From Hesseltinella vesiculosa (lineage: Eukaryota; Mucoromycota; Mucoromycetes; Mucorales; Cunninghamellaceae): DNA of 64,000 nucleotides. The translations under genes and the position numbers were made by a program. Below the pieces are notes generated by a model. The model saw only the letters and a program-made list of their open reading frames with translations, had not been told where the DNA came from and ran no database searches. This document shows positions 3,984 through 59,720 of this stretch, piece by piece. Location: positions 885,001-949,000 of the forward strand of contig MCGT01000001.1 in NCBI GenBank assembly GCA_002104935.1, in the 5' to 3' direction. Position 1 is the first letter of the stretch; every line of letters begins with the position of its first letter.

Positions 3984-4005
3984 GTACCGAAGCTTACATC
4001 AGCTG

Positions 4006-5188: not shown

Positions 5189-7215
5189 TTAAAAATCAAA
5201 AGCTTCTCTGAAAATTTGAATATCAGCACCAGGTGAGGCTTTGCTCTCGAGGTCACGACGGCCCAGCATTCGGAGGGCTTTGCGCAGCATTCCCCAGAGG
5301 TTGTCGGACACGTTAATACCTTCTTCATTCCCCAGTCGTTTGTGGGTGGAGAGGGCAGAGAGGAAATGCTCGGCAGCTTCTTGGTAGCAGCCAATGTTTA
5401 AACAGCTGACACCAATGTTGTAGCGGGCGCGCACGAACGTTGGCCACAGGTTCAAGGCGTTTTCATAGGCTTCAATGGCTTCCTCACATCGTCCGTGATT
5501 TGCGAGAGTTGCGCCCAGGCGATTCCACAGCAGTGGGTCCTACAACAAAGGGCTGGTCAGGTAAAAATAATAAAAAAAGCAGGAGAGTATACTGTCTTAC
5601 CTTGGGTTGGCTCTTGACAGCCGTAAAGAAGCAGTCGATGGCTTTTGTATAATCCCCCCGCCCATAAAACAAGATGCCAAGCCCTACTTGCACATCGGGG
5701 TCCATGTTGTTGCCTTCAGGGGCCATTTGAGCTGCAGTGATAAAAAGATCGGTAACACGATCGTGAAGCTCCCCCAATGTGACGGTGTCGTAGGTGTGGG
5801 GTTCTGGAGGTGCGATGCCGGGGTATTTCTTTCTGATCCATCGATTCAAGGTGTAATAAGTGGCATAGTCATGAGATTCATTGGTATAACTGACGGCCAG
5901 CGACATCAGGGCTTGTAGATTGTCAGGATCCAGGTCGACAGCATGTTGGAGCGCACGCACAGCGGCAACTTCCTTTTCATTTTGGGATTGTACTTGGCCA
6001 AGGTAGGTCCAGGTGATGGAATCACCTCCGTTGACGCTGCTCTGGATGGTAGCTTCCAAGGCCAGAGCTAGTTCGCTAAGACTGATGGTGGTGTCGCCAC
6101 GGCTTTGTCTGGCTAGCATTGCCATGGATTCGCCTAAAGGGTCATCGTGGCTGAGGTAAGGATTGTCGATTTCAAATGTATACGAGCCGACTTTTGGCAT
6201 GTGCTTGTTGGATTCGTCAAAGGTGCCAAATTCGTCTTCCCAGCGATTCTCGTCAAGATCCTCAAGTTCTTGTTCGTAAGCTTGCTCTGGTCGGGCCATC
6301 TGATCTTGCAAGTCTTGTAGCAATGAACCTATACCGTCGATGGTATCAGTAGTTTCGTTCTCCACGGTGTTCTTGTCGACACTGCCAGCGTGCTGTAGCT
6401 GATCTTGGTCGAGGGTAGTGCTGGTAGTTTGATCTTGGTCGACATGGTCAAATGCAGCAAACTGGGCATCCCAAGTCTGTGTGTCGAAGGAGTCTGTCAA
6501 TGATGTTGTGTTGATCCAATGCATTCGATTCGAGGGTATGGTCATGGGTGTGGAGTGGGGGATCCATGGCTGGGGTGAGAATTCGGTTGAGCGAAGGCTG
6601 GAAGGTCCATGGTGGAATTCTTGTTGCCAATCTTGAGAAGGGATAAAGTGAGCCTGAGGGTTGGGAACAAAGGATAAAACGGAAAGAGGATTCCTACAAG
6701 GAGTTACCTGAAGTGCGTGAGAGAGGTTGAGGGTTTGGGTGGTTGAATTCAGAGGACCAAGATTTCCCATGGGCGACCAATTCAAGTTCTTGTTGCAATC
6801 TTGACATGGCAAAGGGGCCAGTGTTGGTTGTATACGTTGGTGCAGGAGCATCTTTGAAAAAATCAGAGGCGAGATCGGTCTTGTTGACGTCAGTGTAAGT
6901 GCGTTGCGTGCGAAACTATTCAAGAGAGGCGAGATGCAGGATGGAAATGGTGAGCATATTCATATAAAGAGCATGGTTATTTCTACATTTTCGCGTTGTT
7001 CATTGTACGGGTACTTACAGAGGAAGAGCTTGATGGTGCAGACTGAAACCGTTCCTGTTTTAAAAAAAAAGTGAGGAAAAAAAGAAAAGAAAAAATACCT
7101 AAGCCTAAGCCAATGTCTTTTAAGATTAACTTACCTGCTGCAGCGACCGGTCTTGAGAATATTGCTTTAGCACAGAAGCGATGGGATCATGGGTGGAGCA
7201 ATCAATGGAATTCAT
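5189..7215 (-). CDS. PEX5: Peroxisomal targeting signal 1 receptor PEX5
   Basis: This is the cycling receptor that binds C-terminal SKL-type signals on peroxisomal matrix proteins and docks at PEX14/PEX13. Minus-strand exons 7215-7135, 7054-7019, 6915-6708, 6631-5601 and 5539-5189 join in frame to 568 aa, normal for the family. The N-terminus ends exon 1 with QDRSLQQ and continues ERFQSAP, the conserved fungal PEX5 N-terminal box. Docking pentapeptides (WxxxF) are visible: WSSEF (residue ~92), WQQEF (~110), WDAQF (~162) and WEDEF (~240). The C-terminal half is TPR repeats ending in FREAFDF. The first ATG (7215) was chosen because exons 1 and 2 restore the conserved box. No obvious conserved cysteine precedes it within the first exon except C6, which could be the recycling cysteine. 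It diverges from the giant gene across 428 bp. Confidence 0.93.
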
Positions 7216-7643: not shown

Positions 7644-10600
7644 ATGAATTTGAAGCATCTTCTCCATAGAAATAGCCGTGGTTTACCAGGCTCATTTGAT
7701 CAAAATACTGAAGACCAAACTACTCAACAACCAACAAAGTAAGAAGAAATGACACTTGAAAAGAAACAAGCTGGGCTCACTTTTTTTTTCTCAGCAATGT
7801 ACAACAGCAAGATCAAACGAATCAAGATCGTGTTACTGAGCAGGCAGCAGCTCCTCTACGAAGTACCGATCCACAACGGCGTCGAACCAACGATAGTCAA
7901 CTGTCCGATATCTCTGCCGATGATGCTTACGCCCGGGCCAAACAACAGTTCCCTGTGAGTATAACAAGCAGCACAGCCTCGCTGAAGAGTCAAGAGTTTA
8001 AGCCTCTTCCTGTCAAGAACCAACCGTCTCAACTGTCATCATCAAGCGAGGCCTCAAAATCACAAATGGATCCTACTTTGTCTGTTAAACTGCCCACCAC
8101 AGACGACGCAAGCTCTACCGGCGGCTTCTTTGGAGATGGCCATACCTTTGACACCCCTGGTCATAACCCCCACAAACAGGCCTACCAAAACTGCCTTCCC
8201 AACCCCGTTGTTTACGCAGACCCTGCCCCCTTTGACTTTCCCCAAGACGACGATGTTATGATTCTACCTCATGACACCATGCCTGGTAGCTTCTTGCCTG
8301 AACGTGCCAATGAGCGAGGCAAATACAAGTCAATTGAAGGCGAGCAAGCGCCTGTTCACAATGACAGCATTCAATCCAAAGTCTCATCTACTGCTGCCGC
8401 AGCTGCTGGTGGAGCCATTGGAGCAGCCAGCGGTTTTGCTGCCTCTATTGCCCGTGTCCTTGGTGGTGGCCGAAGTGAACCTGTGGAAAATGCCAATGAT
8501 GATCCAGAGGACAACTCCTCTGAATCTGACTCTTCTCAACAGCAGGGTGCCGCCCGATGGAACCAACTCTCCACCGATGCAAAGCGCCAGCAAGAAGTGA
8601 ATGCCTCCCTGCCCTCTGATCTGCGCAAAGGAAGCGTCGACATTGATGATGATGGTACTACAAACGATGTTTCCGATCGCTCCTTCACCGATGATGCTGA
8701 TGATGCTGATCCTGTTGCTACCGGAACTGAGGGTGCTCGCTCCTTTGCCAAGGGTGTTGCTGCTGGCGCCATGGGTGCCTCCAGTGCCACTACTGCTGTG
8801 CTTGATGGTGGTTTGAACAAGAACCCACTACGAGGAAATATCGATACAAACGATGCTGATGCCGACCTCACCGGTACCCAGAGCTCTGTGCAAGACCGTC
8901 TGGGCGAACCCTCCCTTGACGAACCTGACTTTGACCCACAACAAGACTTGTCTACAGACTTCGGTGACTCTTCATTGAACAATATGGACGACCGCATGAA
9001 GAATGCACTCGATGGTGCCAATGACTCCGTCTCTGGTCCCATGGATAATACTTCCGACCGGGTCACTGATGCTGGTGCCAACATCCAATCTGCCTCCTCT
9101 AATGGCAAAGGTATTGCTGCAGGTGTGTTGGGTACTGCTGGAGCTGCAATTGGAATGAACAAACTCTCAGGAAAAGGAAAGATGGCAGAACGCGATGGTG
9201 ACGTCAACCGCTTCGATATTGAACCACCTTCGCAAAACCGCTTCAACACCAATAAATCACCACAAGAAAAAAACACACCTGGCTGCGAAAAGATGGCTGA
9301 TGAACCTGCTGCTGCTAGCCGTGCCAGGGATGATAATCGTGCTCCTGGTGCTATCAACGACGAGTCCAACCAAGTGACATCTGGTGCTGCGAAGGCCAAG
9401 GATGGAGCTGGAGCCAAGAAGAAGGGGATTTTTGGCGCTTTCCGAAGGCACCCAAAGCAAGGAAAGTCCTCTAAACCGGACACCGAGAACACCGCTAACA
9501 CTCAACCAACTGCTATTGATGAAGATCATCCAAAACTCGATATCCAAAATGGCAAGGCCCCAGAAAAAAAGAAACTGTTGGGCCGGTTAGGTTCTAGCGG
9601 CCCCACTTCCATGGATGACATCAATGATCACCCAGTAACAGATGGTTCTAGTGGCAAAAATACGTCTACTAGTGGAGTCAACAATGCCTCTGATCAAACT
9701 GCTTACGCAGCTACCGATGCCAAACCCACGGGTTCTAAGAAAGGAATTGCTGCCGGGGTCTTTGGAGCCTTCAGAAGACACTCGAAGCAAGGAAACCCCA
9801 GTGGACTTGATCCTCGCGCCAAGGCATTTGTCCCTCAGCAATCTCTGGAAACAAATCCTGACCCCCAGCACAACGTGATTCCTGGACGTCCTGGCATCGA
9901 CGACTCTGCCGTGAAAAACGAAGCCGACCATGCAAAGGGTGTTCTTACTGATGCCGATGATCATATGTCTAGCCCCACGAGAGATGCTGCTGACCGAACC
10001 ACAGGTGCTCCTACCGATGTCAAGGTCGCTATCAACCCTGGTACCAAAGATCATACTGCTGGTGTATTGGGTGCTGCTGGTGCTGCCATTGGCTTGAAGA
10101 AGCTCTCGAAAAAAGGAGCCATTGGTGAATTGAATGACGTTGACGCTATGACCGATTCTGAGCCTCACGGTAATCTCCCAGGAAGAAAAAAAAAAAAAAA
10201 GATAGGATTTGGCTGTGTTAACATTAACTTACATTTCGTCTAAAGACAATCGCGATCCTGATGCAAAAGGCGATGTCTCTGATGCAGCCGGTGCAGACGA
10301 TAATCCCACTCTCGACTTGGGCTCTACCAAACCTGACACGAACATGAATGATCCACAACATTCACCGGATGCTCTCTTTGATCACTATGACAATGACCAA
10401 CCTACCAATCATCCTAGTCTTGATACGCCTGACCTCCATCAAGATCACCTCGATGAATCAACAACCAAGCCAAATCTTGATCCCCGACAAGAAACCCCTG
10501 AAAAAGCCAACCACACTAACCGTGTTGATTTGGGCGGCGCGAAAAATGATGTTTCCGACCCTGCAAATGCTCAAGATAATGCCAAGAAAGCGACTTCTGA

Positions 10601-13075
10601 TGCTAAAGACATTACTTCCAGCACAAAAGGTGCCGCTGCTGGTGCTCTTGGTGCTGCTGCTGCTCTTGGTGCTGCTGCGTTTGGAGCTGGCAAACTTAAG
10701 CAACAGGGAAGGGCTAGTTCACCTGACACACGTGACAGCCTTGGGGATAACGAAGCTAAGCTTGGAATGGAAATGGGCTGCCAGCAAGGTTTGCGCAAAA
10801 AAAAAAAAAAAAAGCTTTTATACGAACTTTTTTTCTTTCCCCGATTTTTTTAGGCGATGATTTTGTTAGCGCCAATTCCGGTTTGGGTATGCACGCGCAG
10901 CAAGATGTCGAAGATTCCTTGGATGATGGCACCGTCGAAGAAACATCCAACAAAGCCAATGCGAGGGATTATGGCCACGATAGTGAAGATCTTGACCTCG
11001 GTGATGAAGATCTCGATCTCGGTGAAGAGCAAGATGTCAATCAATCCCTTGATCGAGAGCAAGGGTTCGATGACGCTGACTTGGAACAAAATGATCTTGA
11101 TGGTGAAAAATCTGGCCAACCTGGATTGAATCAACGTGAATCCGTTAAACCTGGACTTGATCAATCTGACCTTGGACAAGCTAACCTCGATGAACCTCCT
11201 CTGCGTCAGGTCGATGTTGATGGTAATCTCTCGCAAGGTGGCATCAATGATGTTGACTTTGAGGATTCTTCTTTGAATGATGTTGACGACCGATCAACTG
11301 GCACTTTTGAAGATGCGGAAGACTCGTTTTCAGGTGTCAAGAACGAGCAAGTCCCAATTGGTACCATGGGTGTTGCTGCCACCGCTGGTGCTTTGGATGC
11401 TGCTGCAGGAGATGCCAATGACGTTACAAAACACAAGCAACAACGAAAGACTGAGGCCGAAGAGGAACCCACTCATGGTCATTTCAATCAACCAAGCCTA
11501 GATCTCGAACGACGTAAGCCAACAGAAAAAAATCTGCAAGGCTTCCCTACATTGACTTTACACATAACCTTCTTAGCCGATACTGATGCACTAGTTGACC
11601 GAGGCGTCTCTCCTGACGTGACGAAACAAGGCTTATCTGACGCATTGGACGCCGATTTTAACCTTTCTGACACCGAACTGACCACGGATATTCATCATGA
11701 CCAAGAAAACCTGGGCTCACAGGGTAACATATCTGCAAAAAAAAAAAAAAAAAAAACTGTGCGCACATCTTAATATCATGTCTTTTAAAATAGCTGACCG
11801 GCCAACACGTCTTGTAACCGATATGAAAGGTTCTGTATCTGACAACACAAATGATGCCACCGATCGCCCTTCAAGCGCCTTTACAGATGCCAAGAACGAT
11901 GTCTTTGGTCAAATGAGTGATGCAAACGACCAAAGGGAAAATACAACTTCCGAATCCAAACCTTCCGCTTCTGCCTCCAAAGGACTCTTAGCTGGGATCA
12001 TGGGCGCTGCCGGTGTTGCTGGAGCTGCTGCCGGTTTGAAGAAGTATGGAAACCAAGAGAGTGGAAATCATCTGATCGAGCATGGACATGCCCCTGATTC
12101 TCTACAAGCCGGATCAAACCAATGTTCTCCCAATCAGCCAGATCTCAACCAGGAACAAGGTATGATAAGCGTCTCCTATCCCACATATGAATGGCCTTGT
12201 CATATTTTTTTAACGCATTCCCATTTATCTCAGGTAGCGAAGGGATTGACAATAGAGAAACCCATGATGTATTGGGCGACCCTGATCAAGATGTCAGCTT
12301 GGGAAAGCTCGAAGAACGCTTGGACGCTGATGCCAATCAATTTAACCTTCCACAAACCTCTGGATCTCCTCTCGCTAAGTCCAACCTCGATCAGCCTATC
12401 GATGAACCCCGCGATGATGATGATGATAGAAAATATGGTGGCGACCAAGCTGAAGACATGTCTCGTCAAATAACTGACAACCTCGACGACGGTGATTTCG
12501 ATGACTCAATGAATGACGACGATGACCGAACAACAGCAACCTTTGCAGATGCTGAAGGATCATTTTCTGATGACAGTCATGTTTCTGAAACTTCTGACAG
12601 CAAAGATGTAAGTGTAAGGCAAAAGGAAAGAACATAAAAATCGGGCTCTAACGACAGCATCGTTTGTTCTAACAGACCACTGGGGCTCGCTTCAACAAGC
12701 CTGACCTCGGTCCATCGCCTGACCGACCCAGCCTAAACCAGCCTGGCCTTGATCTCGAACAAGGTATGACAAAGCCTTTCAATATAATTTTTATTGCTAG
12801 TTAATATTAACGATCTACGGCAATTTTTTTTGACTGATGATGTCATTGAAGAATCTTCTAATGCCACCAATGATTCTATTCATTATGACTTGAGTACTGC
12901 CGCTGGTACAGCTGCAGGTGTCTTGGGTATTGCTGGTGTCGCTGGTGCAGCTACTAAACTGAAGGACAAGACTTCCAATCGTGCAGCGATCGATGAACTC
13001 GACAACGTCACCGACCACCGTGTCGCTCAATCAGTCGAAGCAGAGTCAAAATCTAACCTCAATCAAGGTAATACT

Positions 13076-13128
<53 letters not shown>

Positions 13129-16100
13129 AGCAATCTAACTTCTATTTAACATAAAGGTGGCCATATCATGAATGTGCCAGCCCAAATGGGGGACGTGCCT
13201 TCTTGGAATAACGAAAACGATCGCACTGGCTTTGATGAAGATACCAAGCAAAATGAAATCGACGCAAAGAAAACTGGTACGGGAATTCCTGATTTGCAAT
13301 CTGCCCACACGGGTTTGGACATGCCACAGCACCCATCCACCAATAAAACCGAACTCAATCAGCATAATAAACTTCCAGATGCTGATAATGGTAAAACCGA
13401 AAATGCAATTAAAATAGGCTTACAGCACTAAGCAAATTGCTTCTTTCCTTTTGCTCGTAGGGTCGTCTGCCAATCCCCGGCACCACAAATTAGACGCCTC
13501 AGGTCCAGGCCAAATAGAAGACACTGAAAATGCCAAACATGAAAACAAAGGACTTGCTGCTGGTATCTTAGGTGCTGCTGGAGTAGCTGGAGCCGCCTTT
13601 GGAATGAAGTATGAACATTCTACACCCGGCAAAATCCAACCCAATCTCGACAATGAGAGTATCACAACACCCAAGGCTAATATGCCTAACGTCGACTTGC
13701 CTAACGTCGACCTGCCAAACGTCGACATGCCCAAGGTTGACATGCCCAACGTGGATATGCCCAACGTGGATATGCCCAAGGCTGATATGCCCAGCGTCGA
13801 CGTGCCCAACGTTGACATGCCCAACGTCGACATGCCAAACGTCGATATGCCAAACGTCGATATGCCAAACGTCGATATGCCAAACGTTGACATGCCAAAC
13901 GTCGATATGCCAAACGTCGATATGCCAAACGTCGACATGCCCAAGGTCGACATGCCCAAGGTTGACATGCCCAACGTGGATATGCCCAACTTGGATATGC
14001 CAAACGTCGATATGCCAAACGTCGATATGCCAAACGTTGACATGCCAAACGTCGATATGCCAAACGTCGATATGCCAAACGTCGACATGCCCAAGGTTGA
14101 CATGCCCAACTTGGATATGCCAAACGTCGATATGCCAAACGTCGATATGCCAAACGTTGACATGCCAAACGTCGATATGCCAAACGTCGATATGCCAAAC
14201 GTCGACATGCCCAAGGTTGACATGCCCAACTTGGATATGCCAAACGTCGATATGCCAAACGTCGATATGCCAAACGTCGATATGCCAAACGTCGATATGC
14301 CAAACGTTGACATGCCAAACGTCGATATGCCAAACGTCGATATGCCAAACGTCGACATGCCAAACGTCGATATGCCAAACGTCGATATGCCAAACGTCGA
14401 CATGCCCAAGGTCGACATGCCCAAGGTTGACATGCCCAACGTGGATATGCCCAACTTGGATATGCCAAACGTCGATATGCCAAACGTCGATATGCCCAAG
14501 GCTGATATGCCCAGCGTCGACGTGCCCAACGTTGACATGCCCAACGTCGACATGCCAAACGTCGATATGCCAAACGTCGATATGCCAAACGTCGATATGC
14601 CAAACGTTGACATGCCAAACGTCGATATGCCAAACGTCGATATGCCAAACGTCGACATGCCCAAGGTCGACATGCCCAAGGTTGACATGCCCAACGTGGA
14701 TATGCCCAACTTGGATATGCCAAACGTCGATATGCCAAACGTCGATATGCCAAACGTCGATATGCCAAACGTCGATATGCCCAAGGCTGATATGCCCAGC
14801 GTCGACGTGCCCAACGTTGACATGCCCAACGTCGACATGCCAAACGTCGATATGCCAAACGTCGATATGCCAAACGTCGATATGCCAAACGTTGACATGC
14901 CAAACGTCGATATGCCAAACGTCGATATGCCAAACGTCGACATGCCCAAGGTCGACATGCCCAAGGTTGACATGCCCAACGTGGATATGCCCAACTTGGA
15001 TATGCCAAACGTCGATATGCCAAACGTCGATATGCCAAACGTTGACATGCCAAACGTCGATATGCCAAACGTCGATATGCCAAACGTCGACATGCCCAAG
15101 GTTGACATGCCCAAGGTTGACATGCCCAGCGTCGACGTGCCCAAGGTTGACATGCCAAACGTTGACATGCCCAAGACCGACTTGCCCAACGTTGACTTGC
15201 CCAACGTTGACATGCCAAGCGTCGACATGCCAAACGTTGACATGCCCAAGGTTGATATGCCCAAGGTTGACATGCCCAATGTTGACATGCCAGACGTCGA
15301 TATGCCAAACGTCGATATGCCAAACGTCGATATGCCAAACGTCGATATGCCAAACGTCGACATGCCCAAGACCGACTTGCCCAACGTTGACTTGCCCAAG
15401 GCTGATATGCCAAACGTCGATATGCCCAGCATTGGCAAAGCTAATGTTGAATTGCCTAACCTTGATGCTGATGTTACTGGTATCAAGAAACCTTCATTGG
15501 GTGCTAAAGGACTTGCCGCCGGTGTGATGGGAGCTATGGGTGCTGCTGGAGCTGCTATTGGTCTGAAAGGAAAATTACCAAAACGTAAGACACACCAGTC
15601 GAACATTGATGCTCCTGACATTGACTAATCTAACAATGATATGGCATTTGCAGATTCACCCAAGGTTGATATGCCCAATGTTGATATGCCCAACGTTGAC
15701 ATGGCCAATGTCGATATGCCCAAGGTTGATATGCCCAACGTTGACATGCCCAAGGTTGACATGCCCAACGTCGACATGCCAAACGTCGATATGCCAAACG
15801 TCGATATGCCAAACATTGACATGCCAAACGTCGACTTGCCAAACGTCGATATGCCCAAGGCTGATATGCCCAGCGTCGACATGCCAAACGTCGATATGCC
15901 CAGGGCTGATATGCCCAACGTTGACATGCCTAACGTCGATTTGCCCAACGTCGATATGCCTAAGGCTGACATGCCCAGCGTCGACGTGCCCAACGTTGAC
16001 ATGCCCAACGTCGACATGCCCAAGGTTGACATGCCCAAGGTTGACATGCCCAGCGTCGACATGCCCAACGTCAACATGCCCAAGACCGACTTGCCCAACG

Positions 16101-19100
16101 TTGACTTGCCTAAGACTGATATGCCAAACGTCGATATGCCCAGCATTGGCAAAGCTAATGTTGAATTGCCTAACCTTGATGCTGATGTTGCTGGTATCAA
16201 GAAACCTTCGTTGGGCGCTAAAGGACTTGCCGCCGGTGTGATGGGAGCTATGGGTGCTGCTGGAGCTGCTATTGGCCTGAAAGGAAAATTACCAAAACGT
16301 AAGACACACCAGTCGAACATTGATGCTCCTGACATTGACTAATCTAACAATGATATGGCATTTGCAGATTCACCCAAGGTTGATATGCCCAATGTTGATA
16401 TGCCCAACGTTGACATGGCCAATGTCGATATGCCCAAGGTTGATATGCCCAACGTTGACATGCCCAAGGTTGACATGCCAAACGTCGATATGCCAAACGT
16501 CGATATGCCCAAGGTTGACATGCCCAAGGTTGACATGCCCAAGGTTGACATGCCAGACGTCGACATGTCAAACGTCGACATGCCAAACGTTGATATGCCC
16601 AGCGTCGACATGCCCAAGGTCGACATGCCAAACGTCGATATGCCAAACGTCGACATGCCAAACGTTGATATGCCAAACATTGATATGCCAAACGTCGACA
16701 TGTCAAACGTCGATATGCCAAACGTCGACATGCCCAAGGTTGACATGCCCAAGGTTGACATGCCCAGCGTCGACATGCCCAACGTCAACATGCCCAAGAC
16801 CGACTTGCCCAACGTTGACTTGCCTAAGACTGATATGCCAAACGTCGATATGCCCAGCATTGGCAAAGCTAATGTTGAATTGCCTAACCTTGATGCTGAT
16901 GTTGCTGGTATCAAGAAACCTTCGTTGGGCGCTAAAGGACTTGCCGCCGGTGTGATGGGAGCTATGGGTGCTGCTGGAGCTGCTATTGGCCTGAAAGGAA
17001 AATTACCAAAACGTAAGACACACCAGTCGAACATTGATGCTCCTGACATTGACTAATCTAACAATGATATGGCATTTGCAGATTCACCCAAGGTTGATAT
17101 GCCCAATGTTGATATGCCCAACGTTGACATGGCCAATGTCGATATGCCCAAGGTTGATATGCCCAACGTTGACATGCCCAAGGTTGACATGCCAAACGTC
17201 GATATGCCAAACGTCGATATGCACAAGGTTGACATGCCCAAGGTTGACATGCCCAAGGTTGACATGCCAGACGTCGACATGTCAAACGTCGACATGCCAA
17301 ACGTTGATATGCCCAGCGTCGACATGCCCAAGGTCGACATGCCAAACGTCGATATGCCAAACGTCGACATGCCAAACGTTGATATGCCAAACATTGATAT
17401 GCCAAACGTCGACATGCCAAACGTCGATATGCCAAACGTCGACATGCCCAAGGTTGACATGCCCAAGGTTGACATGCCCAGCGTCGACATGCCCAACGTC
17501 AACATGCCCAAGACCGACTTGCCCAACGTTGACTTGCCTAAGACTGATATGCCAAACGTCGATATGCCCAGCATTGGCAAAGCTAATGTTGAATTGCCTA
17601 ACCTTGATGCTGATGTTGCTGGTATCAAGAAACCTTCGTTGGGCGCTAAAGGACTTGCCGCCGGTGTGATGGGAGCTATGGGTGCTGCTGGAGCTGCTAT
17701 TGGCCTGAAAGGAAAATTACCAAAACGTAAGACACACCAGTCGAACATTGATGCTCCTGACATTGACTAATCTAACAATGATATGGCATTTGCAGATTCA
17801 CCCAAGGTTGATATGCCCAATGTTGATATGCCCAACGTTGACATGGCCAATGTCGATATGCCCAAGGTTGATATGCCCAACGTTGACATGCCCAAGGTTG
17901 ACATGCCAAACGTCGATATGCCAAACGTCGATATGCCAAACGTCGACATGCCCAAGGTTGACATGCCCAAGGTTGACATGCCAGACGTCGACATGTCAAA
18001 CGTCGACATGCCAAACGTTGTTATGCCCAGCGTCGACTTGCCAAACGTCGATATGCCCAAGGCTGATATGCCCAGCGTCGACTTGCCAAACGTCGATATG
18101 CCCAAGGCTGATATGCCCAGCGTCGACATGCCCAAGGTCGACATGCCAAACGTCGATATGCCAAACATCGATATGCCAAACGTCGACATGCCAAACGTTG
18201 ATATGCCAAACGTCGACATACCAAACGTCGACATGCCCAAGGTTGACATGCCCAACGTCGACATGCCCAAGGTTGACATGCCAAACGTCGACATGCCAAA
18301 CGTCGACATGCCAAACGTTGATATGCCCAACGTCAACATGTCCAAGACCGACTTGCCCAACGTTGACTTGCCCAACGTTGACATGCCAAGCGTCGACATG
18401 CCCAAGGTTGACATGCCAAACATCGACATGCCCAACGTCGACATGGCCAAGGTCGATATGCCAAACATCGACATGCCAAACGTCAACATGCCCAAGACCG
18501 ACTTGCCCAACGTTGACTTGCCCAAGGCTGATATGCCAAACGTCGATATGCCCAGCATTGGCAAAGCTAATGTTGAATTGCCTAACCTTGATGCTGATGT
18601 TACTGGTATCAAGAAACCTTCCATTGGGTGCTAAAGGACTTGCCGCCGGTGTGATGGGAGCTATGGGTGCTGCTGGAGCTGCTATTGGTCTGAAAGGAAA
18701 ATTACCAAAACGTAAGACACACCAGTCGAACATTGATGCCCTTGACATTGACTAATCTAACAATGACATGCCATTTGCAGATTCACCCAAGGTTGACATG
18801 CCTAACGTCGACATGCCTAACGTCGACATGCCCAAGGTTAACATGGCCAACGTCGATTTGCCCAATATCGACATGCCCAACGTTGATATGCCCAGCGTTG
18901 ACATGCCCAAGGCCGATATGCCCAACGTCGATATGCCAAACATCGACATGCCAAACGTCGACATGCCAAACGTTGATATGCCCAGCGTCGACTTGCCAAA
19001 CGTCGATATGCCCAAGGCTGATATGCCCAGCCTCGACATGCCCAACGTTGACATGCCCAACGTCGACATGCCAAACGTCGATATGCCCAAGGTCGACATA

Positions 19101-22100
19101 CCAAACGTCGATATGCCCAAGGTCGACATGCCAAACGTCGACATGCCCAAGGTTGATATGCCCAAGGTTGACATGCCAAAGGTTGACATGCCAGAACGTC
19201 GACATGCCAAACGTCGACATGCCAAACGTTGATATGCCCAGCGTCGACTTGCCAAACGTCGATATGCCCAAGGCTGATATGCCCAGCCTCGACATGCCCA
19301 ACGTTGACAAGCCCAAGGTCGACATGCCCAAGGTTGATATGCCCAAGGTCGACATGCCAAACGTCGACATGCCAAACGTCGATATGCCAAACGTCGACAT
19401 GCCAAACGTTGATATGCCAAACATTGATATGCCAAACGTCGACATGCCAAACGTCGATATGCCAAACGTCGACATGCCCAAGGTTGACATGCCCAAGGTT
19501 GACATGCCCAGCGTCGACATGCCCAACGTCAACATGCCCAAGACCGACTTGCCCAACGTTGACTTGCCTAAGACTGATATGCCCAAACGTCGATATGCCC
19601 AGCATTGGCAAAGCTAATGTTGAATTGCCTAACCTTGATGCTGATGTTACTGGTATCAAGAAACCTTCATTGGGTGCTAAAGGACTTGCCGCCGGTGTGA
19701 TGGGAGCTATGGGTGCTGCTGGAGCTGCTATTGGTCTGAAAGGAAAATTACCAAAACGTAAGACACACCAGTCGAACATTGATGCTCCTGACATTGACTA
19801 ATCTAACAATGATATGGCATTTGCAGATTCACCCAAGGTTGATATGCCCAATGTTGATATGCCCAACGTTGACATGGCCAATGTCGATATGCCAAGGTTG
19901 ATATGCCCAACGTTGACATGCCCAAGGTTGACATGCCCAACGTCGACATGCCAAACGTCGATATGCCAAACGTCGATATGCCAAACATTGACATGCCAAA
20001 CGTCGACTTGCCAAACGTCGATATGCCCAAGGCTGATATGCCCAGCGTCGACATGCCAAACGTCGATATGCCCAGGGCTGATATGCCCAACGTTGACATG
20101 CCTAACGTCGATTTGCCCAACGTCGATATGCCTAAGGCTGACATGCCCAGCGTCGACGTGCCCAACGTTGACATGCCCAAACGTCGACATGCCCAAGGTT
20201 GACATGCCCAAGGTTGACATGCCCAGCGTCGACATGCCCAACGTCAACATGCCCAAGACCGACTTGCCCAACGTTGACTTGCCTAAGACTGATATGCCAA
20301 ACGTCGATATGCCCAGCATTGGCAAAGCTAATGTTGAATTGCCTAACCTTGATGCTGATGTTGCTGGTATCAAGAAACCTTCGTTGGGCGCTAAAGGACT
20401 TGCCGCCGGTGTGATGGGAGCTATGGGTGCTGCTGGAGCTGCTATTGGCCTGAAAGGAAAATTACCAAAAACGTAAGACACACCAGTCGAACATTGATGC
20501 TCCTGACATTGACTAATCTAACAATGATATGGCATTTGCAGATTCACCCAAGGTTGATATGCCCAATGTTGATATGCCCAACGTTGACATGGCCAATGTC
20601 GATATGCCCAAGGTTGATATGCCCAACGTTGACATGCCCAAGGTTGACATGCCAAACGTCGATATGCCAAACGTCGATATGCCCAAGGTTGACATGCCCA
20701 AGGTTGACATGCCCAAGGTTGACATGCCAGACGTCGACATGTCAAACGTCGACATGCCAAACGTTGATATGCCCAGCGTCGACATGCCCAAGGTCGACAT
20801 GCCAAACGTCGATATGCCAAACGTCGACATGCCAAACGTTGATATGCCAAAACATTGATATGCCAAACGTCGACATGTCAAACGTCGATATGCCAAACGT
20901 CGACATGCCCAAGGTTGACATGCCCAAGGTTGACATGCCCAGCGTCGACATGCCAACGTCAACATGCCCAAGACCGACTTGCCCAACGTTGACTTGCCTA
21001 AGACTGATATGCCAAACGTCGATATGCCCAGCATTGGCAAAGCTAATGTTGAATTGCCTAACCTTGATGCTGATGTTGCTGGTATCAAGAAACCTTCGTT
21101 GGGCGCTAAAGGACTTGCCGCCGGTGTGATGGGAGCTATGGGTGCTGCTGGAGCTGCTATTGGCCTGAAAGGAAAATTACCAAAACGTAAGACACACCAG
21201 TCGAACATTGATGCTCCTGACATTGACTAATCTAACAATGATATGGCATTTGCAGATTCACCCAAGGTTGATATGCCCAATGTTGATATGCCCAACGTTG
21301 ACATGGCCAATGTCGATATGCCCAAGGTTGATATGCCCAACGTTGACATGCCCAAGGTTGACATGCCAAACGTCGATATGCCAAACGTCGATATGCACAA
21401 GGTTGACATGCCCAAGGTTGACATGCCCAAGGTTGACATGCCAGACGTCGACATGTCAAACGTCGACATGCCAAACGTTGATATGCCCAGCGTCGACATG
21501 CCCAAGGTCGACATGCCAAACGTCGATATGCCAAACGTCGACATGCCAAACGTTGATATGCCAAAACATTGATATGCCAAACGTCGACATGCCAAACGTC
21601 GATATGCCAAACGTCGACATGCCCAAGGTTGACATGCCCAAGGTTGACATGCCCAGCGTCGACATGCCCAACGTCAACATGCCCAAGACCGACTTGCCCA
21701 ACGTTGACTTGCCTAAGACTGATATGCCAAACGTCGATATGCCCAGCATTGGCAAAGCTAATGTTGAATTGCCTAACCTTGATGCTGATGTTGCTGGTAT
21801 CAAGAAACCTTCGTTGGGCGCTAAAGGACTTGCCGCCGGTGTGATGGGAGCTATGGGTGCTGCTGGAGCTGCTATTGGCCTGAAAGGAAAATTACCAAAA
21901 CGTAAGACACACCAGTCGAACATTGATGCTCCTGACATTGACTAATCTAACAATGATATGGCATTTGCAGATTCACCCAAGGTTGATATGCCCAATGTTG
22001 ATATGCCCAACGTTGACATGGCCAATGTCGATATGCCCAAGGTTGATATGCCCAACGTTGACATGCCAAGGTTGACATGCCAAACGTCGATATGCCAAAC

Positions 22101-25100
22101 GTCGATATGCCAAACGTCCGACATGCCAAGGTTGACATGCCCAAGGTTGACATGCCAGACGTCGACATGTCAAACGTCGACATGCCAAACGTTGTTATGC
22201 CCAGCGTCGACTTGCCAAACGTCGATATGCCCAAGGCTGATATGCCCAGCGTCGACTTGCCAAACGTCGATATGCCCAAGGCTGATATGCCCAGCGTCGA
22301 CATGCCCAAGGTCGACATGCCAAACGTCGATATGCCAAACATCGATATGCCAAACGTCGACATGCCAAACGTTGATATGCCAAACGTCGACATACCAAAC
22401 GTCGACATGCCCAAGGTTGACATGCCCAACGTCGACATGCCCAAGGTTGACATGCCAAACGTCGACATGCCAAACGTCGACATGCCAAACGTTGATATGC
22501 CCAACGTCAACATGTCCAAGACCGACTTGCCCAACGTTGACTTGCCCAACGTTGACATGCCAAGCGTCGACATGCCCAAGGGTTGACATGCCAAACAATC
22601 GACATGCCCAACGTCGACATGGCCAAGGTCGATATGCCAAACATCGACATGCCAAACGTCAACATGCCCAAGACCGACTTGCCCAACGTTGACTTGCCCA
22701 AGGCTGATATGCCAAACGTCGATATGCCCAGCATTGGCAAAGCTAATGTTGAATTGCCTAACCTTGATGCTGATGTTACTGGTATCAAGAAACCTTCATT
22801 GGGTGCTAAAGGACTTGCCGCGGTGTGATGGGAGCTATGGGTGCTGCTGGAGCTGCTATTGGTCTGAAAGGAAAATTACCAAAACGTAAGACACACCAGT
22901 CGAACATTGATGCCCTTGACATTGACTAATCTAACAATGACATGCCATTTGCAGATTCACCCAAGGTTGACATGCCTAACGTCGACATGCCTAACGTCGA
23001 CATGCCCAAGGTTAACATGGCCAACGTCGATTTGCCCAATATCGACATGCCCAACGTTGATATGCCCAGCGTTGACATGCCCAAGGCCGATATGCCCAAC
23101 GTCGATATGCCAAACATCGACATGCCAAACGTCGACATGCCAAACGTTGATATGCCCAGCGTCGACTTGCCAAACGTCGATATGCCCAAGGCTGATATGC
23201 CCAGCCTCGACATGCCCAACGTTGACATGCCCAACGTCGACATGCCAAACGTCGATATGCCCAAGGTCGACATACCAAACGTCGATATGCCCAAGGTCGA
23301 CATGCCAAACGTCGACATGCCCAAGGTTGATATGCCCAAGGTTGACATGCCAAAGGTTGACATGCCAGACGTCGACATGCCAAACGTCGACATGCCAAAC
23401 GTTGATATGCCCAGCGTCGACTTGCCAAACGTCGATATGCCCAAGGCTGATATGCCCAGCCTCGACATGCCCAACGTTGACAAGCCCAAGGTCGACATGC
23501 CCAAGGTTGATATGCCCAAGGTCGACATGCCAAACGTCGACATGCCAAACGTCGATATGCCAAACGTCGACATGCCAAACGTTGATATGCCAAACATTGA
23601 TATGCCAAACGTCGACATGCCAAACGTCGATATGCCAAACGTCGACATGCCCAAGGTTGACATGCCCAAGGTTGACATGCCCAGCGTCGACATGCCCAAC
23701 GTCAACATGCCCAAGACCGACTTGCCCAACGTTGACTTGCCTAAGACTGATATGCCAAACGTCGATATGCCCAGCATTGGCAAAGCTAATGTTGAATTGC
23801 CTAACCTTGATGCTGATGTTACTGGTATCAAGAAACCTTCGTTGGGCGCTAAAGGACTTGCCGCCGGTGTGATGGGAGCTATGGGTGCTGCTGGAGCTGC
23901 TATTGGTCTGAAAGGAAAATTACCAAAACGTAAGACACACCAGTCGAACATTGATGCTCCTGACATTGACTAATCTAACAATGATATGGCATTTGCAGAT
24001 TCACCCAAGGTTGATATGCCCAATGTTGATATGCCCAACGTTGACATGGCCAATGTCGATATGCCCAACGTTGATATGCCCAACGTTGATATGCCCAAGG
24101 TTGACATGCCCAACGTCGATATGCCAAACGTCGATATGCCCAAGGCTGATATGCCCAAGGTCGACATGCCAAACGTCGATATGCCAAACGTCAACATGCC
24201 AAACGTTGATATGCCAAACATTGATATGCCAAACGTCGACATACCAAACGTCGACATGCCCAAGGTTGACATGCCCAACGTCGACATGCCCAAGGTTGAC
24301 ATGCCAAACGTCGACATGCCAAACGTCGACATGCCAAACGTTGATATGCCCAACGTCAACATGTCCAAGACCGACTTGCCCAACGTTGACTTGCCCAACG
24401 TTGACATGCCAAGCGTCGACATGCCAAACGTCGACATGCCCAAGGTTGACATGCCAAACATCGACATGCCCAACGTCGACATGGCCAAGGTCGATATGCC
24501 AAACATCGACATGCCAAACGTCAACATGCCCAAGACCGACTTGCCCAACGTTGACTTGCCCAAGGCTGATATGCCAAACGTCGATATGCCCAGCATTGGC
24601 AAAGCTAATGTTGAATTGCCTAACCTTGATGCTGATGTTACTGGTATCAAGAAACCTTCATTGGGCGCTAAAGGACTTGCCGCCGGTGTGATGGGAGCTA
24701 TGGGTGCTGCTATTGGCCTGAAAGGAAAATTACCAAAACGTAAGACACACCAGTCGAACATTGATGCCCTTGACATTGACTAATCTAACAATGACATGCC
24801 ATTTGCAGATTCACCCAAGGTTGACATGCCTAACGTCGACATGCCTAACGTTGATATGGCCAATGTCGATATGCCCAAGGTTGATATGCCCAACGTTGAC
24901 ATGCCAACGTTGACATGCCAAACGTCGATATGCCAAACGTCGATATGCCCAACGTTGATATGCCCAACGTTGACATGCCCAAGGTTGACATGCCAAACGT
25001 CGATATGCCAAACGTCGATATGCCAAACGTCGATATGCCCAATGTCGACATGCCAAACGTCGATATGCCCAAGGTTGACATGCCCAAGGTTGACATGCCC

Positions 25101-28100
25101 AAGGTTGACATGCCCAACGTCGACATGCCCAAGGTTGACATGCCCAACTTCGACATGCCCAAGGTCAATATGCCCAAGGTCGATACGCCCAACGTTGACA
25201 TGCCCAACGTTGATATGCCAAACGTCGACTTGCCCAACGTCAACATGCCCAAGACTGACTTGCCCACTGTTGACTTGCCCAAGGCTGATATTCCAAACGT
25301 CGATATGCCCAGCATTGGCAAAGCTAATGTTGAATTGCCTAACCTTGATGCTGATGTTACTGGTATCAAGAAACCTTCGTTGGGCGCTAAAGGACTTGCC
25401 GCCGGTGTGATGGGAGCTATGGGTGCTGCTGGAGCTGCTATTGGTCTGAAAGGAAAATTACCAAAACGTAAGACACACCAGTCGAACATAGATGCCCCTG
25501 ACATTGACTAATCTAACAATGACATGCCATTTGCAGATTCACCCAAGGTTGATATGCCCAATGTCGATATGCCCAACGTTGACATGCCAAACGTCGACAT
25601 GCCTAATGTCGACATGCCCAAGGTTAACATGGCCAACGTCGATTTGCCCAATATCGACAAGCCCAATGTTGACATGCCCAACGTTGATATGCCCGGAGCC
25701 AACATGCCGAAGGTTGGCATGCCCAAGGTTGATATGCCCGGAGCCAACTTGCCCAATGTCGATATGCCAAACGTCGACATGCCGAAAATCATCAATTCTG
25801 ATGTGAGTATGCCTAACATCGATATGCCCAGCCTCGATAAACCCGGTATTGATAAGCCTGATATTGCCACACCCAAGGTCAATTTGTCAAACGTTAACAT
25901 GCCGAGCGCCGACAAACCTAGTAGTGAGATGCCGAATTTGGATAAGAGCAATGTTGGAGCCAAGAAACCTTCTATTGGTACAAAAGGAATTGTAGCAGGT
26001 GTGATAGGCGCTGCTGGTTCTGCAATTGGCTTACACAAACATGCAAAGCATGGAAAGACAGGTAATCTTGGCGGGAATGTATCTATCCCTTGTACTAAAA
26101 ATGCCTCTTGTGTTTTCCCAGATGTGAAAGCCCTTGACCTGCAAAACAAAGGTAAGCTTCTAAAAAAAAAAAAGAAAAAAAGAAAAAAAACTTAACGCTT
26201 GCATGCTGAATGATAGGAAAAATTGCTTTGGATGCTGGTGCTGTTGGCAGTGGGACGGTTCCAGACATCGCTAGGCAGGTTCCAGGTTCTACTCTTGATA
26301 TGAATGGTGCCAAAGGAAATGGTGCAGGTGCCTTGGATGCTACCGGTGATAACGGTGCTGCCGTTATCCCCATGAACACTGATGCCTCGCAGCCTGCTGG
26401 TGATCGATTAGCCCAAACGGCTGCTGATGTGCAGCATGGTAATGTTTATTATATATATGAATCAACATCTCAAATTCACGATTATATCTCTGCCAATGAT
26501 GAAGGTACCAAGAAGGGTGGTCTAGCTGGGTTTATGGGTGCCATAGGCTTAGGAAAGCATGGGCATCATGCAAAATCTAGCAAAATAAATGCCGAGCCGC
26601 GACCTTCCGATGCACAGCTTTCCACTGATGCTCAACTCACTGGACATGGGCTCAACCCCGACGACAATCAAGCCGGTGTGGGAAGAAATGAACGTGACCC
26701 TTTGACTGAACAAGGACAAAAGTACAAGCTTGCTACGGGTGCTGCTGTTGCTACTGCAGCCGCAACAGCTGCATCTGTGGGAGTGGGTGCTGGTACGAAG
26801 GATCAAGATGGTGCAACATCGTCGAACAAAGTCTTAATCGAGTCACCCAGTGGCGAAGCTCTTAACCAAAAAGGTGATCACAAACGATCACCCTACAAGC
26901 CCCGCCTCGGTCAGCAAAGCCCTCCCTCTGCTGACATTGAAAGCAAGCAATCTCAGTATCTCGGCAATGGCATCGGCATTCAGCAGCCATCGTCTGATCG
27001 AAAAGTTGGACAATCTCCTGTGAACCCATTAATCAACCAAGAGCAGTCGTCTCTCTCTCCTGACACCGGTTACAGCCACGAACTTACAGTAGGTGATCGC
27101 CAATCGCAAGCGTCTCCATTCGACCGTCATTCCCAGAGATCACCTTATGATAGCCTTTCTCAAAGGTCAAAGTCGCCCATCGACCGGCAAATGCAAAGAT
27201 CACCAATGAATCCGCTGATCAATCAATCGCACACACCAACATACGGAAACCCTCTGCACCAATCTCTGGACAACCCTGCTGTCATGGACCAAGCTGCAAT
27301 CGATCGCCTCAGACAAACGTCTCACTCACCTGTCAATCCACTAATCAACCAATCGCACACCCCGACTTACGACAACCCTCTGCACCAATCGCTTGACAAC
27401 CTTGCCATCAATGAGCAAGCTGAATTTGATAGAAAATCTCAAAGATCTCTTTCGCCTGCCAACCCATTGATCAACCAAGCCGCCCCTCAAGCACAAGGTA
27501 GCGCTTTACAGCAATCGCTTCCTAACGGACCTGTACGACCGCCACAGCAAGGCTATCGGACTGTCGTTGACGTGCAACCTCATCCTCACTACGCAGATGT
27601 TTGCCAGCCTAAGCCTCGCGTCGCTCAACAAGGCGTCCCACCCCTCCCTCACCATACTATGCCACCGCACCAACCTTTTGTAGCCCAGCAAAATATGCCT
27701 TCACCTCACCATGACATACAACAGACTCAACCTAGGATTGCTCTTCAAGGTATGCCTTCAGTACCTCAGCAAGGCATGCAATACACCCAACAGCAACGTG
27801 CTCCACAATGGCAACAGGCTCAGCCTCAAATCCGTCTCAATCAGCCAATGCAACCCCCACCACCACAAATCCGCGTTGGTCAGCAAATGCAGCAACCCCA
27901 GCATTCTCAGATGCGAGCTCCCCAGACTCAAGTTCCTCAAATACAGGTTGGTCAACAGATGCAGCAACCCCAGTGGCGCCAGCAAGCGATGCCTGGTCAA
28001 CAAGGATACATTGACCCTAGCAGAACCAAGATCATCTACGACGAAGGTTCCGGTCCACTAAACGCAAATGCTCACAGTCCTGTAATGAATGCCCCTGGTA

Positions 28101-28444
28101 CTGGAATGTTTGGGCATCACAATATGCAAGCAGGAGTGTCACATCCTTCTAGTGGGCACGTTGCCATCACAACTGGTGGTCGCCGTCGCAGCTCAACACG
28201 CGACCTCGCCGCTGCCTTACCTGTGCTCTCCAACTACGTGCCATATGCTCAAGGCATTGCAGTCGAACGCAATGCTGAAACACGCTATGACCTCCATAAT
28301 CAACAAATCTGCGATCAAAACCGCCGCTACTCCCTCAAACATGGTGATGCCAATGTCGATCCTGGCCTTGCCCCTCCTACCGAACACCGACGGCGTCGCA
28401 GCAGCCTTCGAGAATTCTTGAGGCATTTGATGGGCCGCTCGTAG
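7644..28444 (+). CDS. Giant repeat protein: VDMPN/K pentapeptide arrays with glycine-zipper modules
   Basis: I do not recognise a known gene. In-frame exons: 7644-7738, 7795-10169, 10246-10788, 10854-11513, 11577-11723, 11794-12159, 12234-12607, 12676-12763, 12801-13067, 13157-13390, 13461-15584, then array exons 15654-16298, 16368-17012, 17082-17726, 17796-18711, 18781-19757, 19827-20472, 20542-21186, 21256-21901, 21971-22885, 22955-23929, 23999-24739, 24809-25467, 25537-26061, then 26122-26151, 26217-26438 and 26505-28444. With single-base slips corrected this gives about 6,346 aa. The N-terminal third is acidic (D/N/S-rich) with modules like KGIAAGVLGTAGAAIG and two FRRHxKQG motifs. The middle is hundreds of VDMPx pentads. 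The C-terminus is Q/P-rich, with QRSP and NPLINQSHTPTY repeats and two RRRSS motifs. There is no N-terminal signal peptide. The 26439-26504 intron is optional, being in frame either way. A scaffold or tether role is a guess. Confidence 0.8.
13077..13124. repeat. (CA)n microsatellite inside an intron of the giant gene
   Basis: About 22 uninterrupted CA dinucleotides occupy most of the intron between the exons ending at 13067 and starting at 13157. Confidence 0.95.
13681..15435 (+). repeat. 15-bp coding minisatellite (VDMPN pentads), first uninterrupted block
   Basis: About 117 consecutive 15-nt units of the type gtcgatatgccaaac lie in the long exon 13461-15584. They encode VDMPN, VDMPK, ADMPS, VDVPN and similar. 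Higher-order repeats are visible: a run containing KADMPSVDVPNVDM recurs at about 13780, 14500 and 14790. The exon then ends with IGKANVELPNLDADV and a glycine-zipper segment. Because the unit is a multiple of three, all reading frames on both strands stay open. Confidence 0.95.
15654..19826 (+). repeat. Five-exon block, copy 1 (4,173 bp)
   Basis: Units starting at 15654, 16368, 17082, 17796 and 18781 recur in the same order as units 19827, 20542, 21256, 21971 and 22955. Private variants confirm the pairing: the PRADMPN pentad in the first unit, MSNV in the second, VDMHK in the third, NVVMPS in the fourth and KVNMANVDLPNIDM in the fifth. Single-base slips in this copy are only in its last two units (18621; 19195 and 19583). 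Confidence 0.9.
19827..23998 (+). repeat. Five-exon block, copy 2 (4,172 bp), with many single-base indels
   Basis: This is a near-identical copy of 15654-19826. Slips near 19892, 20178, 20470, 20850, 20953, 21564, 22066, 22117, 22126, 22580, 22597 and 22820 break the frame. They add or remove one base, mostly within C or A runs. The last unit (22955-23929) is clean and intact. Two substitutions near the end (ttcgttgggcgc against ttcattgggtgc) separate it from its partner unit. Confidence 0.9.
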
Positions 28445-28856
28445 CCTTGACACCTTTTTTTTTTTATTGTCATTTAAAGAAAATTTGCAGTTTAATTAAT
28501 AAAAAAAACCAACGTTCGAAGTTGTAGCCAAATTCACATCGAGTGCCTACGGTCAACATCATTTAAACTTATAGTACGATAAAGTTGCAACTTGTATTTT
28601 TACTGACACTGGGACGTTGCAGGGCTTAAACATGGTTACACTCAGCCGATAGTGAAAAGCACTTGTTTCTGCAGTATTAGTTTTCTGTGATGGATAGTTA
28701 AATCTCCAAATTCCTAATATAAGTTTTTTTGGAGTCGTGGTTTTCTTTTGCCCCTTTTTTCATTTCTTGTGGTTTTTATGGTAAAACAAATAAAACAGAG
28801 CTCGGGGCCATGTTACAAAAAAGAGCGTTGCAAATATCCGCAGGCAGAATTGGCTG
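28445..28856. other. 3' flank of the giant gene, no gene seen
   Basis: This is A/T-rich sequence after the TAG stop at 28442-28444. An aataaaa-type signal at about 28498 could direct polyadenylation. Its right end, read on the minus strand, gives short stretches (VTAANSACG) that could be the edge of an inverted transposase fragment. Confidence 0.4.
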
Positions 28857-28860
28857 CGGT

Positions 28861-29953
28861 GACAATTTTAACATCGGTGTTTAAAACCCCCAAAAAAGAT
28901 GACAGATCTATGAACTACCCGCGCGCAGAAAAAAAACATGGCGATGGTATACAAAGGTACAGAAGGTTTCGAAAAAAAAATTGAAGGCGCAAAATATACT
29001 GTACTCTCCCAGAAAAAATCTGAATGGAAAAATGATATACAAAAAATAATTGTTCTAGTTCACTTGGATTAAGCTTGGGAATGTTGTTTTAGGACAGAGT
29101 GCGCTCAACTCGAAAAAAAAATTGGTCTCCAGGACACGCGTGAAAACCGTCAAAGTCTGAAAAGCAATTGCGGGGACGGGAACCAAGTCATCCCGGGTTC
29201 GAAAAAAAACCCATATTTAGACATGGCAAGAAAAGTGTAATGTTTAAGCAAATACTTGCCTTCAAAGGGAATGAAAATAATTGTGAGCGATATATTTTTC
29301 TTTATATGGGTGATGGATTTTTTGAAAATATACTTTCTAAAAAAGTAGCAAAATACTTGCCTTCAAAGGGAATGAAAATAATTGTGAGCGATATATTTTT
29401 CTTTATATGGGTGATGGATTTTTTGAAAATATACTTTCTAAAAAAGTAGCAATTATACTTTTTAGGAAAGTATATTTTCAAAAAATCCATCACCCATATA
29501 AAGAAAAATATATCGCTCACAATTATTTTCATTCCCTTTGAAGGCAAGTATTTGCTTAAACATTACACTTTTCTTGCCATGTCTAAATATGGGTTTTTTT
29601 TCGAACCCGGGATGACTTGGTTCCCGTCCCCGCAATTGCTTTTCAGACTTTGACGGTTTTCACGCGTGTCCTGGAGACCAATTTTTTTTTCGAGATGAGC
29701 GCACTCTGTCCTTAAAACAACATTCACTAGCTTAATCCAACTGAACTAGAGCAGTTTTTTTTTTTTTTTTCATCACTTTTCCTTCCAGATTTTTTCTACG
29801 AGAGTATTTGCGCCTTCATTTTTTTTCGAAATCTTCTGTACCTTTGTATACCATCGCCGTGTTTTTTTTATTTTCTGCACGCTGGTTGTTGACTAGATGG
29901 TTCATACGATCTGACATCAATTTTGGATTTTAAACACCGATGTTAAAATTGTC
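28861..29953. repeat. Long imperfect inverted repeat (~1.1 kb palindrome)
   Basis: The left arm (28861-29455) and right arm (29458-29953) are reverse complements. The match is nearly perfect toward the centre and more diverged outward: gacaattttaacatcggtg at 28861 pairs with its complement at 29935-29953. The left arm additionally carries an internal direct duplication of ~108 bp (about 29236-29341 and 29347-29450). A tRNA-like gggttcgaa lies in each arm (29208; 29598 in complement), but no complete tRNA fold is seen. Confidence 0.85.
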
Positions 29954-50595: not shown

Positions 50596-50597
50596 TA

Positions 50598-51368: not shown

Positions 51369-51370
51369 TA

Positions 51371-52141: not shown

Positions 52142-52143
52142 TA

Positions 52144-52915: not shown

Positions 52916-52917
52916 TA

Positions 52918-54563: not shown

Positions 54564-54584
54564 AAAAAAACTTGCACCAATTCC

Positions 54585-59682: not shown

Positions 59683-59720
59683 TATTTCGGGCTCTCTCTT
59701 TTTTTTTCATTCATTGTTGC

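Follow-up and report, generated by a model that had tools for sequence, protein, structure and literature searches.

A giant gene on the forward strand of contig MCGT01000001.1 of the fungus Hesseltinella vesiculosa (GenBank assembly GCA_002104935.1) is predicted to encode a protein of ~6,331 residues, in which arrays of a V-D-M-P-N-type pentad alternate with segments rich in glycine and alanine. The gene lies in a window of 64,000 nucleotides (nt; positions 885,001 to 949,000 of the contig), and all positions given here are coordinates within this window. By analogy of architecture, the protein may be an intracellular elastic tether or scaffold, in which pentad springs are joined at glycine-zipper nodes, a reading to which a probability of about 0.42 is assigned. 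The pentads, with Pro-Asn or Pro-Lys acting as a flexible turn, would form an acidic and mostly disordered entropic spring, whereas the Lys-flanked Gly/Ala helices would associate pairwise and thereby cross-link the chains or anchor them, and the basic tail would dock onto a membrane or another acidic surface. All array introns are in phase 1 and each of the seven slip-free array exons has a length divisible by three, so that such a tether could become longer or shorter by unequal crossing-over or exon skipping while the frame is kept. The design is likely to resemble that of elastin and flagelliform silk, and the use of the protein is likely to resemble that of leashin or periaxin.

The predicted gene starts with an ATG at 7644, ends with a stop codon at 28442-28444 and consists of 27 exons separated by 26 splice-consistent introns. 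The exon lengths add up to 6,331 residues, close to the ~6,350 residues proposed in the original prediction, an earlier note made from the sequence alone, and the joined exons bear out its claim of one continuous frame from 7644 to 28444 once single-base slips are set aside. With ten introns removed, 2,407 open codons without a stop run from the ATG to 15584, where the first array exon ends; these upstream introns are in phase 1 in eight cases, the first being in phase 2 and the seventh in phase 0. The array comprises 14 exons, E0-E13 (13461-26061), separated by thirteen 69-nt introns, all in phase 1, which amount to three distinct sequences differing at no more than four positions, have identical ends in all 13 cases and would each bring in an in-frame stop if retained. 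Three further introns are predicted between the array and the last exon, two of which (26062-26121 and 26439-26504) stay open if retained, have no branch-like motif and are tentatively regarded as less sure than the others. Among all 26 introns, retention gives an in-frame stop in 22, and the length is not a multiple of three in 10. Thus, the gene structure is well supported at the sequence level, with the splicing predicted, and a division into several independent genes is disfavoured by the shared phase 1 of the array introns, by slip-free array exon lengths that are all divisible by three and by a frame that continues through all the slip-free exons.

Pentads of the V-D-M-P-N type number 603 over all array exons (any frame, one regular expression), in agreement with the hundreds of VDMPN/VDMPK pentads originally placed at the core of the protein. 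The seven slip-free array exons (E0, E1, E2, E3, E10, E11 and E13) hold 325 of them, with the consensus V (276), D (311), M (287), P (311) and N (212), K (79) or S (28), and in the pentad stretch of E0 successive prolines are spaced by five residues in 117 of 117 intervals. Single-base codon differences among these 325 pentads comprise 72,603 synonymous and 42,040 non-synonymous pairs, giving a ratio of non-synonymous to synonymous pairs of 0.58 against 4.5 expected without selection, i.e., a quotient of 0.13, where the pentads are compared as paralogues and near-identical exon copies swell the raw pair counts. Judged by the codon pattern, the amino acids of the pentads are constrained while the synonymous sites vary freely. 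The slip-free exons encode 4,529 residues with a net charge of -338 (D, E, K and R counted).

The second building block was defined as a run of at least 13 residues of G, A, S, T, V, I, L, M or F, at least half of them G or A. By this definition, 25 Gly/Ala segments were counted, in keeping with the glycine-zipper segments of the original prediction: eight lie within the first 1,699 residues and one near the start of E0, E0-E12 each end in one (13 in total), and the remaining three are found further downstream, among them the one that closes E13. A closing segment is hence found in 14 of 14 array exons, the copy in E11 being three residues shorter and the copy in E9 being interrupted by a slip. 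An alignment of 12 of the 25 segments gave a KGxAAGVLGAAxxxGAAxGLKK-like consensus with one invariant glycine, the aligned segments being 20-44% identical to the first row, and all 14 genome matches to one segment at an E-value (E) of up to 1, among the best candidates scored, fall within the giant gene. A profile of the segments found no match among solved structures at E up to 1. By a hydrophobicity scale for membrane insertion, the sums of the best segments are +2.55 to +3.0 kcal/mol, so that pairing of helices is favoured over their spontaneous entry into a membrane. Because these sums are +2.55 kcal/mol or more, node formation is placed before membrane insertion in the proposed mechanism.

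The two flanks of the array differ in composition. The N-terminal part is acidic (312 D+E against 160 K+R in 1,768 residues), and the C-terminal part is Q/P-rich and slightly basic (56 D+E against 72 K+R in 765 residues), with a basic stretch closing the last exon; both the acidic or Q/P-rich flanks and the basic C-terminus had been proposed before. The earliest window exceeding the hydrophobicity threshold begins at residue 228, and the protein is therefore taken as intracellular. Pfam was scanned with eight of the ten exons of the N-terminal part (all but 7644-7738 and 12676-12763) and with 26219-26437 and 26507-28441 of the C-terminal part (26122-26151 left out). No family scored above its cut-off in these non-array exons, the sole match in the N-terminal part being a sub-threshold one to DUF1720, and the earlier statement that the protein belongs to no recognised family holds for this set.

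Seven of the 14 array exons (E4-E9 and E12) carry single-base slips, which in E7 and E9 still leave the exon length a multiple of three. Two tandem blocks of five array exons each, A (E1-E5) and B (E6-E10), allow these slips to be compared with the substitutions. Aligned over their full length, the blocks differ by two substitutions, 15 single-base insertions or deletions (indels), all of which change the length of short single-base runs, and two mutually offsetting 30-nt gaps that are probably an alignment choice. Aligned exon by exon, substitutions number seven in E4/E9, two in E5/E10 and none in the other three pairs, and the seven in E4/E9 are taken as the same slips aligned otherwise. Since substitutions are rare while indels are common between the blocks, the slips are most likely errors of an unpolished long-read assembly rather than decay, and it follows that the gene is most likely intact. 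A pseudogene arising through frame slips is disfavoured by the same comparison, which also refines the original treatment of the slips, where they had been set aside. Slips of this kind in unpolished assemblies could conceal giant repeat genes from annotation.

Searches for relatives covered ~5.77 billion proteins and are blind to relatives that share no five-residue words or fall outside the length ranges scored. The N-terminal part gave no match (7,993 candidates scored, ~934-2,973 amino acids). E0 gave one (6,486 candidates, ~389-1,237 amino acids), a Pro-rich protein of a Joint Genome Institute (JGI) contig that looks unrelated. A joined chain of 3,527 residues gave three matches (residues 1-2400; 2,263 candidates, ~1,940-6,172 amino acids), of which frog AHNAK was the top (8.6e-208) and the others were two unnamed proteins of 2,591 and 3,735 residues. 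All three align on the pentad array and have V-D-x-P repeats of their own, with VDMP-like motifs aligned in AHNAK. Within the 27-Mb genome of the fungus, all three matches of the N-terminal 500 residues and the single match of the last exon fall at the giant-gene locus, among the best candidates scored, and no second copy of the gene was found. The array exon gave 60 genome matches, mostly in the giant gene and the remainder in seven other places, four of which were read: one is an acidic frame of VEEPI pentads, one carries FAAPA-type repeats, one is a QPSTGG frame and the fourth is Pro-rich, with a start that by eye resembles a signal. As candidate paralogues these were rejected, for the four places carry other repeats (C45, C37 and C2 were left out) and none pairs a Gly/Ala segment with VDMPN pentads. 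By the searches made, the giant gene thus appears to be an orphan. In the literature, nothing was found on pentapeptide repeats in Mucoromycota, on fungal glycine zipper tandem repeats or on giant repeat proteins in Mucorales, and among the titles listed on AHNAK homologs and fungi none concerned a fungal AHNAK.

Two repeat loci elsewhere in the genome are of note. At L009 (G000:C13:395000-404900), ~3290-5347, an acidic frame carries a VEEPI pentad array and an N-terminus that is BIR-domain-like by eye. At L023 (G000:C12:637500-642000), a long array of 15-base-pair (bp) units is open in several frames that match PF00805, which calls for caution in inferring this pentapeptide family from DNA with a period of 15.

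For the design of the protein, the closest comparisons are with elastic proteins of animals. In tropoelastin, Val-Pro-Gly-Val-Gly domains alternate with Lys-rich and often Ala-rich cross-linking domains, each encoded by one exon, and the end is basic, as described in a part of ref. PMC7947355; the likeness lies in exon-encoded Pro-pentapeptide springs that alternate with Lys-rich cross-linking domains ahead of a basic C-terminus. Tropoelastin is, however, extracellular and covalently cross-linked, whereas the giant protein has acidic springs, spring and node in the same exon, the pentad VDMPN instead of VPGVG and no signal-like start (see residue 228 above). Flagelliform silk (Flag) likewise combines Pro-turn pentads, GPGGX, with spacers in its repetitive regions, but is an extracellular fibre with known end domains and another motif. 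Near-identical introns reportedly separate Flag modules (Hayashi and Lewis, 2000). The GPGGX motifs are thought to form type II turns that act as springs, according to a section of ref. PMC8957953, which also describes the repetitive regions. The likeness to elastin and silk would concern design, as no search made linked the gene to either.

The same components could also serve as a tether in which the Gly/Ala segments and the basic tail sit on or in membranes, leaving the pentad array to act just as the leash, as in leashin (Lah) of Pezizomycotina. Leashin has a conserved N-terminus that binds Woronin bodies and a C-terminus that binds the septum. It is also fungal, thousands of residues long and acidic, with Pro-rich central repeats and unlike ends; these repeats, between two end domains, have been likened to the elastic PEVK region of titin, and leashin tethers organelles (from passages of ref. 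PMC2690989). A predicted membrane segment is required for Lah to reach the septum (from an excerpt of ref. PMC5345055), and the giant protein offers 25 Gly/Ala segments besides a basic C-terminal end. On the other hand, none of the segments scores better than +2.55 kcal/mol for spontaneous insertion, some 25 anchors exceed what one leash needs, and the leashin units, PEEVELPASP and LPVDEDLDLLPALPES, are different, with no tandem exon array or glycine zippers described in those passages of ref. PMC2690989. Such a membrane or organelle leash is considered unlikely, and the leashin-like tether offered as one idea in the original prediction is still an inference. Descent from the AHNAK/periaxin family would in turn account for the top long-protein match. 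AHNAK, AHNAK2 and periaxin are giant or long and carry V-D-x-P repeats, and periaxin has a disordered, PEVK-like pentapeptide region (part of ref. PMC7072810). The likeness is confined to the array, though, and is reached by a permuted pentad order too: over 24 circular orders, the native one ranked second against AHNAK (117 bits) behind VNMPD (132 bits), third against database protein P0003 and first against both P0001 and P0004. Against frog AHNAK (P0002), the best E was 9.8 for exon 2 and 2.6 for the last exon, and the PDZ domain that periaxin and AHNAK2 carry (same part of ref. PMC7072810) had no match in the non-array exons scanned against Pfam. Because a permuted order does as well against AHNAK, the resemblance, which is partly order-dependent, is read as one of composition and period rather than descent, and a fungal member of the family by descent seems very improbable. 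The V-D-x-P flavour of AHNAK pointed out in the original prediction is accordingly real, as the top match shows, but looks compositional, with no match for the two non-array exons compared.

Whether the pentads are springs at all depends on their fold. Pro-Asn is a favoured type II pair, and a right-handed quadrilateral beta-helix with one such turn per corner would turn the arrays into stiff rods. The pentad fits the (A/V)(D/N)(L/M)xx pattern of pentapeptide-repeat (Rfr) proteins, and by summed score PF00805 reached 110.6 bits in E0 and 50.8 bits in E10 against a Pfam cut-off of 20.2, with Pentapeptide_4 also above its cut-off in E0. PF00805 was matched by the native pentad order and by none of five permuted ones (one of six orders tested), one of which gave a sub-threshold Pentapeptide_4 match at 0.04. 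Sixteen solved chains were matched, most of them pentad-type beta-helices by aligned letters or names, with 4yfo first (3.6e-10) and chains of apolipoprotein B and LPP2 also among them, and NCBIfam Alr5209 matched at 5.4e-22, below its cut-off. Against a rod, single PF00805 stretches at E up to 1 were absent from E0 and numbered one in E10, and a genome-wide PF00805 scan listed nine matches, none of them at the giant-gene locus. AlphaFold2 likewise gave no confident fold, with a predicted local distance difference test (pLDDT) of 45.4 for E10 (seven rows from the giant gene) and 47.0 for a 200-residue pure pentad block (24 register-shifted rows), DSSP returning nothing for either. Proline occupies i+1 in 311 of 325 pentads and is missing from the amended i+1 residue list in the available portion of ref. 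PMC7337050. It looks tolerable in the fold nonetheless, since the inter-coil bonds of solved pentapeptide-repeat proteins are made by the i+1 carbonyl and the i+2 amide, the i+1 amide not being named as a donor in that portion of ref. PMC7337050. For the pentapeptide-repeat likeness raised in the original prediction, the sequence match is hence stronger than claimed and proline is less of an obstacle than it seems, but AlphaFold2 does not return the fold with confidence. Disorder is thus preferred for the array, and the beta-helix, although a serious minority alternative, is improbable overall. A match to Extensin_1 (PF02095) above the cut-off in E0 was rejected as compositional, given that four of five permuted E10 orders match too (five of six orders in all), one of them at 134.7 bits against 59.4 bits for the native order. 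Lastly, the arrays could be a runaway minisatellite inside coding exons that is tolerated without a function of its own. Other arrays with a period of five residues or 15 bases exist in the genome (L009, L010 and L023), and the near-identical blocks and introns indicate active turnover; this account is, however, quite improbable in view of the constrained amino acids with varying third positions, the uniform intron ends, the closing segment in every array exon (shortened in E11, slip-interrupted in E9) and the 10 exons preceding the array, which stay open for 1,699 residues.

Several points weigh against the elastic tether itself. Its function is argued from architecture, and the searches gave no relative whose function is known; secretion of elastin and silk contrasts with a giant protein whose start is not signal-like, which makes the analogy one of design, not place; and the helicity and pairing of the Gly/Ala segments are presumed. 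Block B could itself be an assembly duplication. In addition, the low pLDDT is a weak sign of disorder, coming from alignments of the gene's own repeats and without a positive control, and the PF00805 match in native order speaks for an ordered rod. A still bolder form of the tether hypothesis, which is rather unlikely, is that a fungal lineage independently invented an intracellular elastin, with a single-copy gene, frame-safe tandem spring-plus-node exons, homogenised introns and a cytoplasmic elastic network of ~6,000-residue chains whose length is tuned by exon copy number. Most giant proteins with an elastic or tethering role that are known to us are animal ones (titin, elastin, AHNAK and silks, alongside leashin in one fungal group). 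If true, the gene, probably from another fungal lineage, would be a clean case of convergence, with elastin- or silk-like exon economy but no relationship to those genes in the searches made, and a natural system for tandem-exon growth.

Table 1 Predicted features of the giant gene (window coordinates)
Feature	Position	Strand	Description
Whole predicted gene	7644..28444	+	27 exons, ~6,331 residues; from exon joining, open frame and exon lengths
N-terminal part	7644..13390	+	10 exons, 1,699 residues, acidic, 8 Gly/Ala segments, no signal-peptide-like hydrophobic start
Introns upstream of array, 1st to 5th	7739-7794, 10170-10245, 10789-10853, 11514-11576, 11724-11793	+	
Introns upstream of array, 6th to 10th	12160-12233, 12608-12675, 12764-12851, 13068-13156, 13391-13460	+	
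E0, first and longest array exon	13461..15584	+	Gly/Ala segment, 117 pentads, second Gly/Ala segment; frame intact
First 69-nt phase-1 array intron	15585..15653	+	GTAAGA...TTGCAG, branch-like CTAAC/CTAAT, in-frame stop if retained
Block A	15654..19826	+	Array exons E1-E5 with introns, 4,173 nt
Block B	19827..23998	+	Array exons E6-E10 with introns, 4,172 nt, tandem copy of block A
E10, slip-free array exon	22955..23929	+	54 pentads and closing Gly/Ala segment
Example closing Gly/Ala segment, GLAAGVMGAMGAAGAAIGL	23854..23910	+	Glycines at i, i+4, i+7, i+10, i+13, i+17; Lys on both sides
E11 (intact), E12 (slipped) and intron between	23999..25467	+	E11 closing segment 3 residues shorter
E13, degenerate last pentad exon	25537..26061	+	19 pentads, own Gly/Ala segment
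C-terminal part	26122..28444	+	Q/P-rich; 126-bp imperfect direct repeat at 27215-27478; basic end RRRRSSLREFLRHLMGRS

Outside the giant gene, Rfam found no RNA family in the window at the gathering score and no transfer RNA genes were found. A 289-bp unit is repeated in 5.5 tandem copies at 1-1603 (~97-98% identity) and has no Rfam match, and an inverted repeat of ~0.5 kb with 88% identity (28852-29347 and 29456-29963) lies immediately downstream of the giant gene. A P-type ATPase match is located ~8 kb from the gene; this match agrees with a fungal source, as do 44 Chitin_synth_2 matches spread over the genome, a family that also matches in four bacterial controls. An axonemal dynein family had no match in the genome, a negative that carries no weight because its control matched nowhere either. 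At 49821-52919 lies a cluster of copies in direct and inverted orientation, 0.2 to 1.7 kb long and ~93-96% identical. Two inverted copies of 1,648 bp, 52916-54563 (+) and 58037-59684 (-), are 100% identical and each hold an open frame of 498 residues; they are probably recent mobile-element insertions, since the copy that was scanned matched the DDE_3 transposase. Between the two transposase copies lie minisatellite arrays of the TGGTCCAAGTG type (54582-54905 and 55121-55466).

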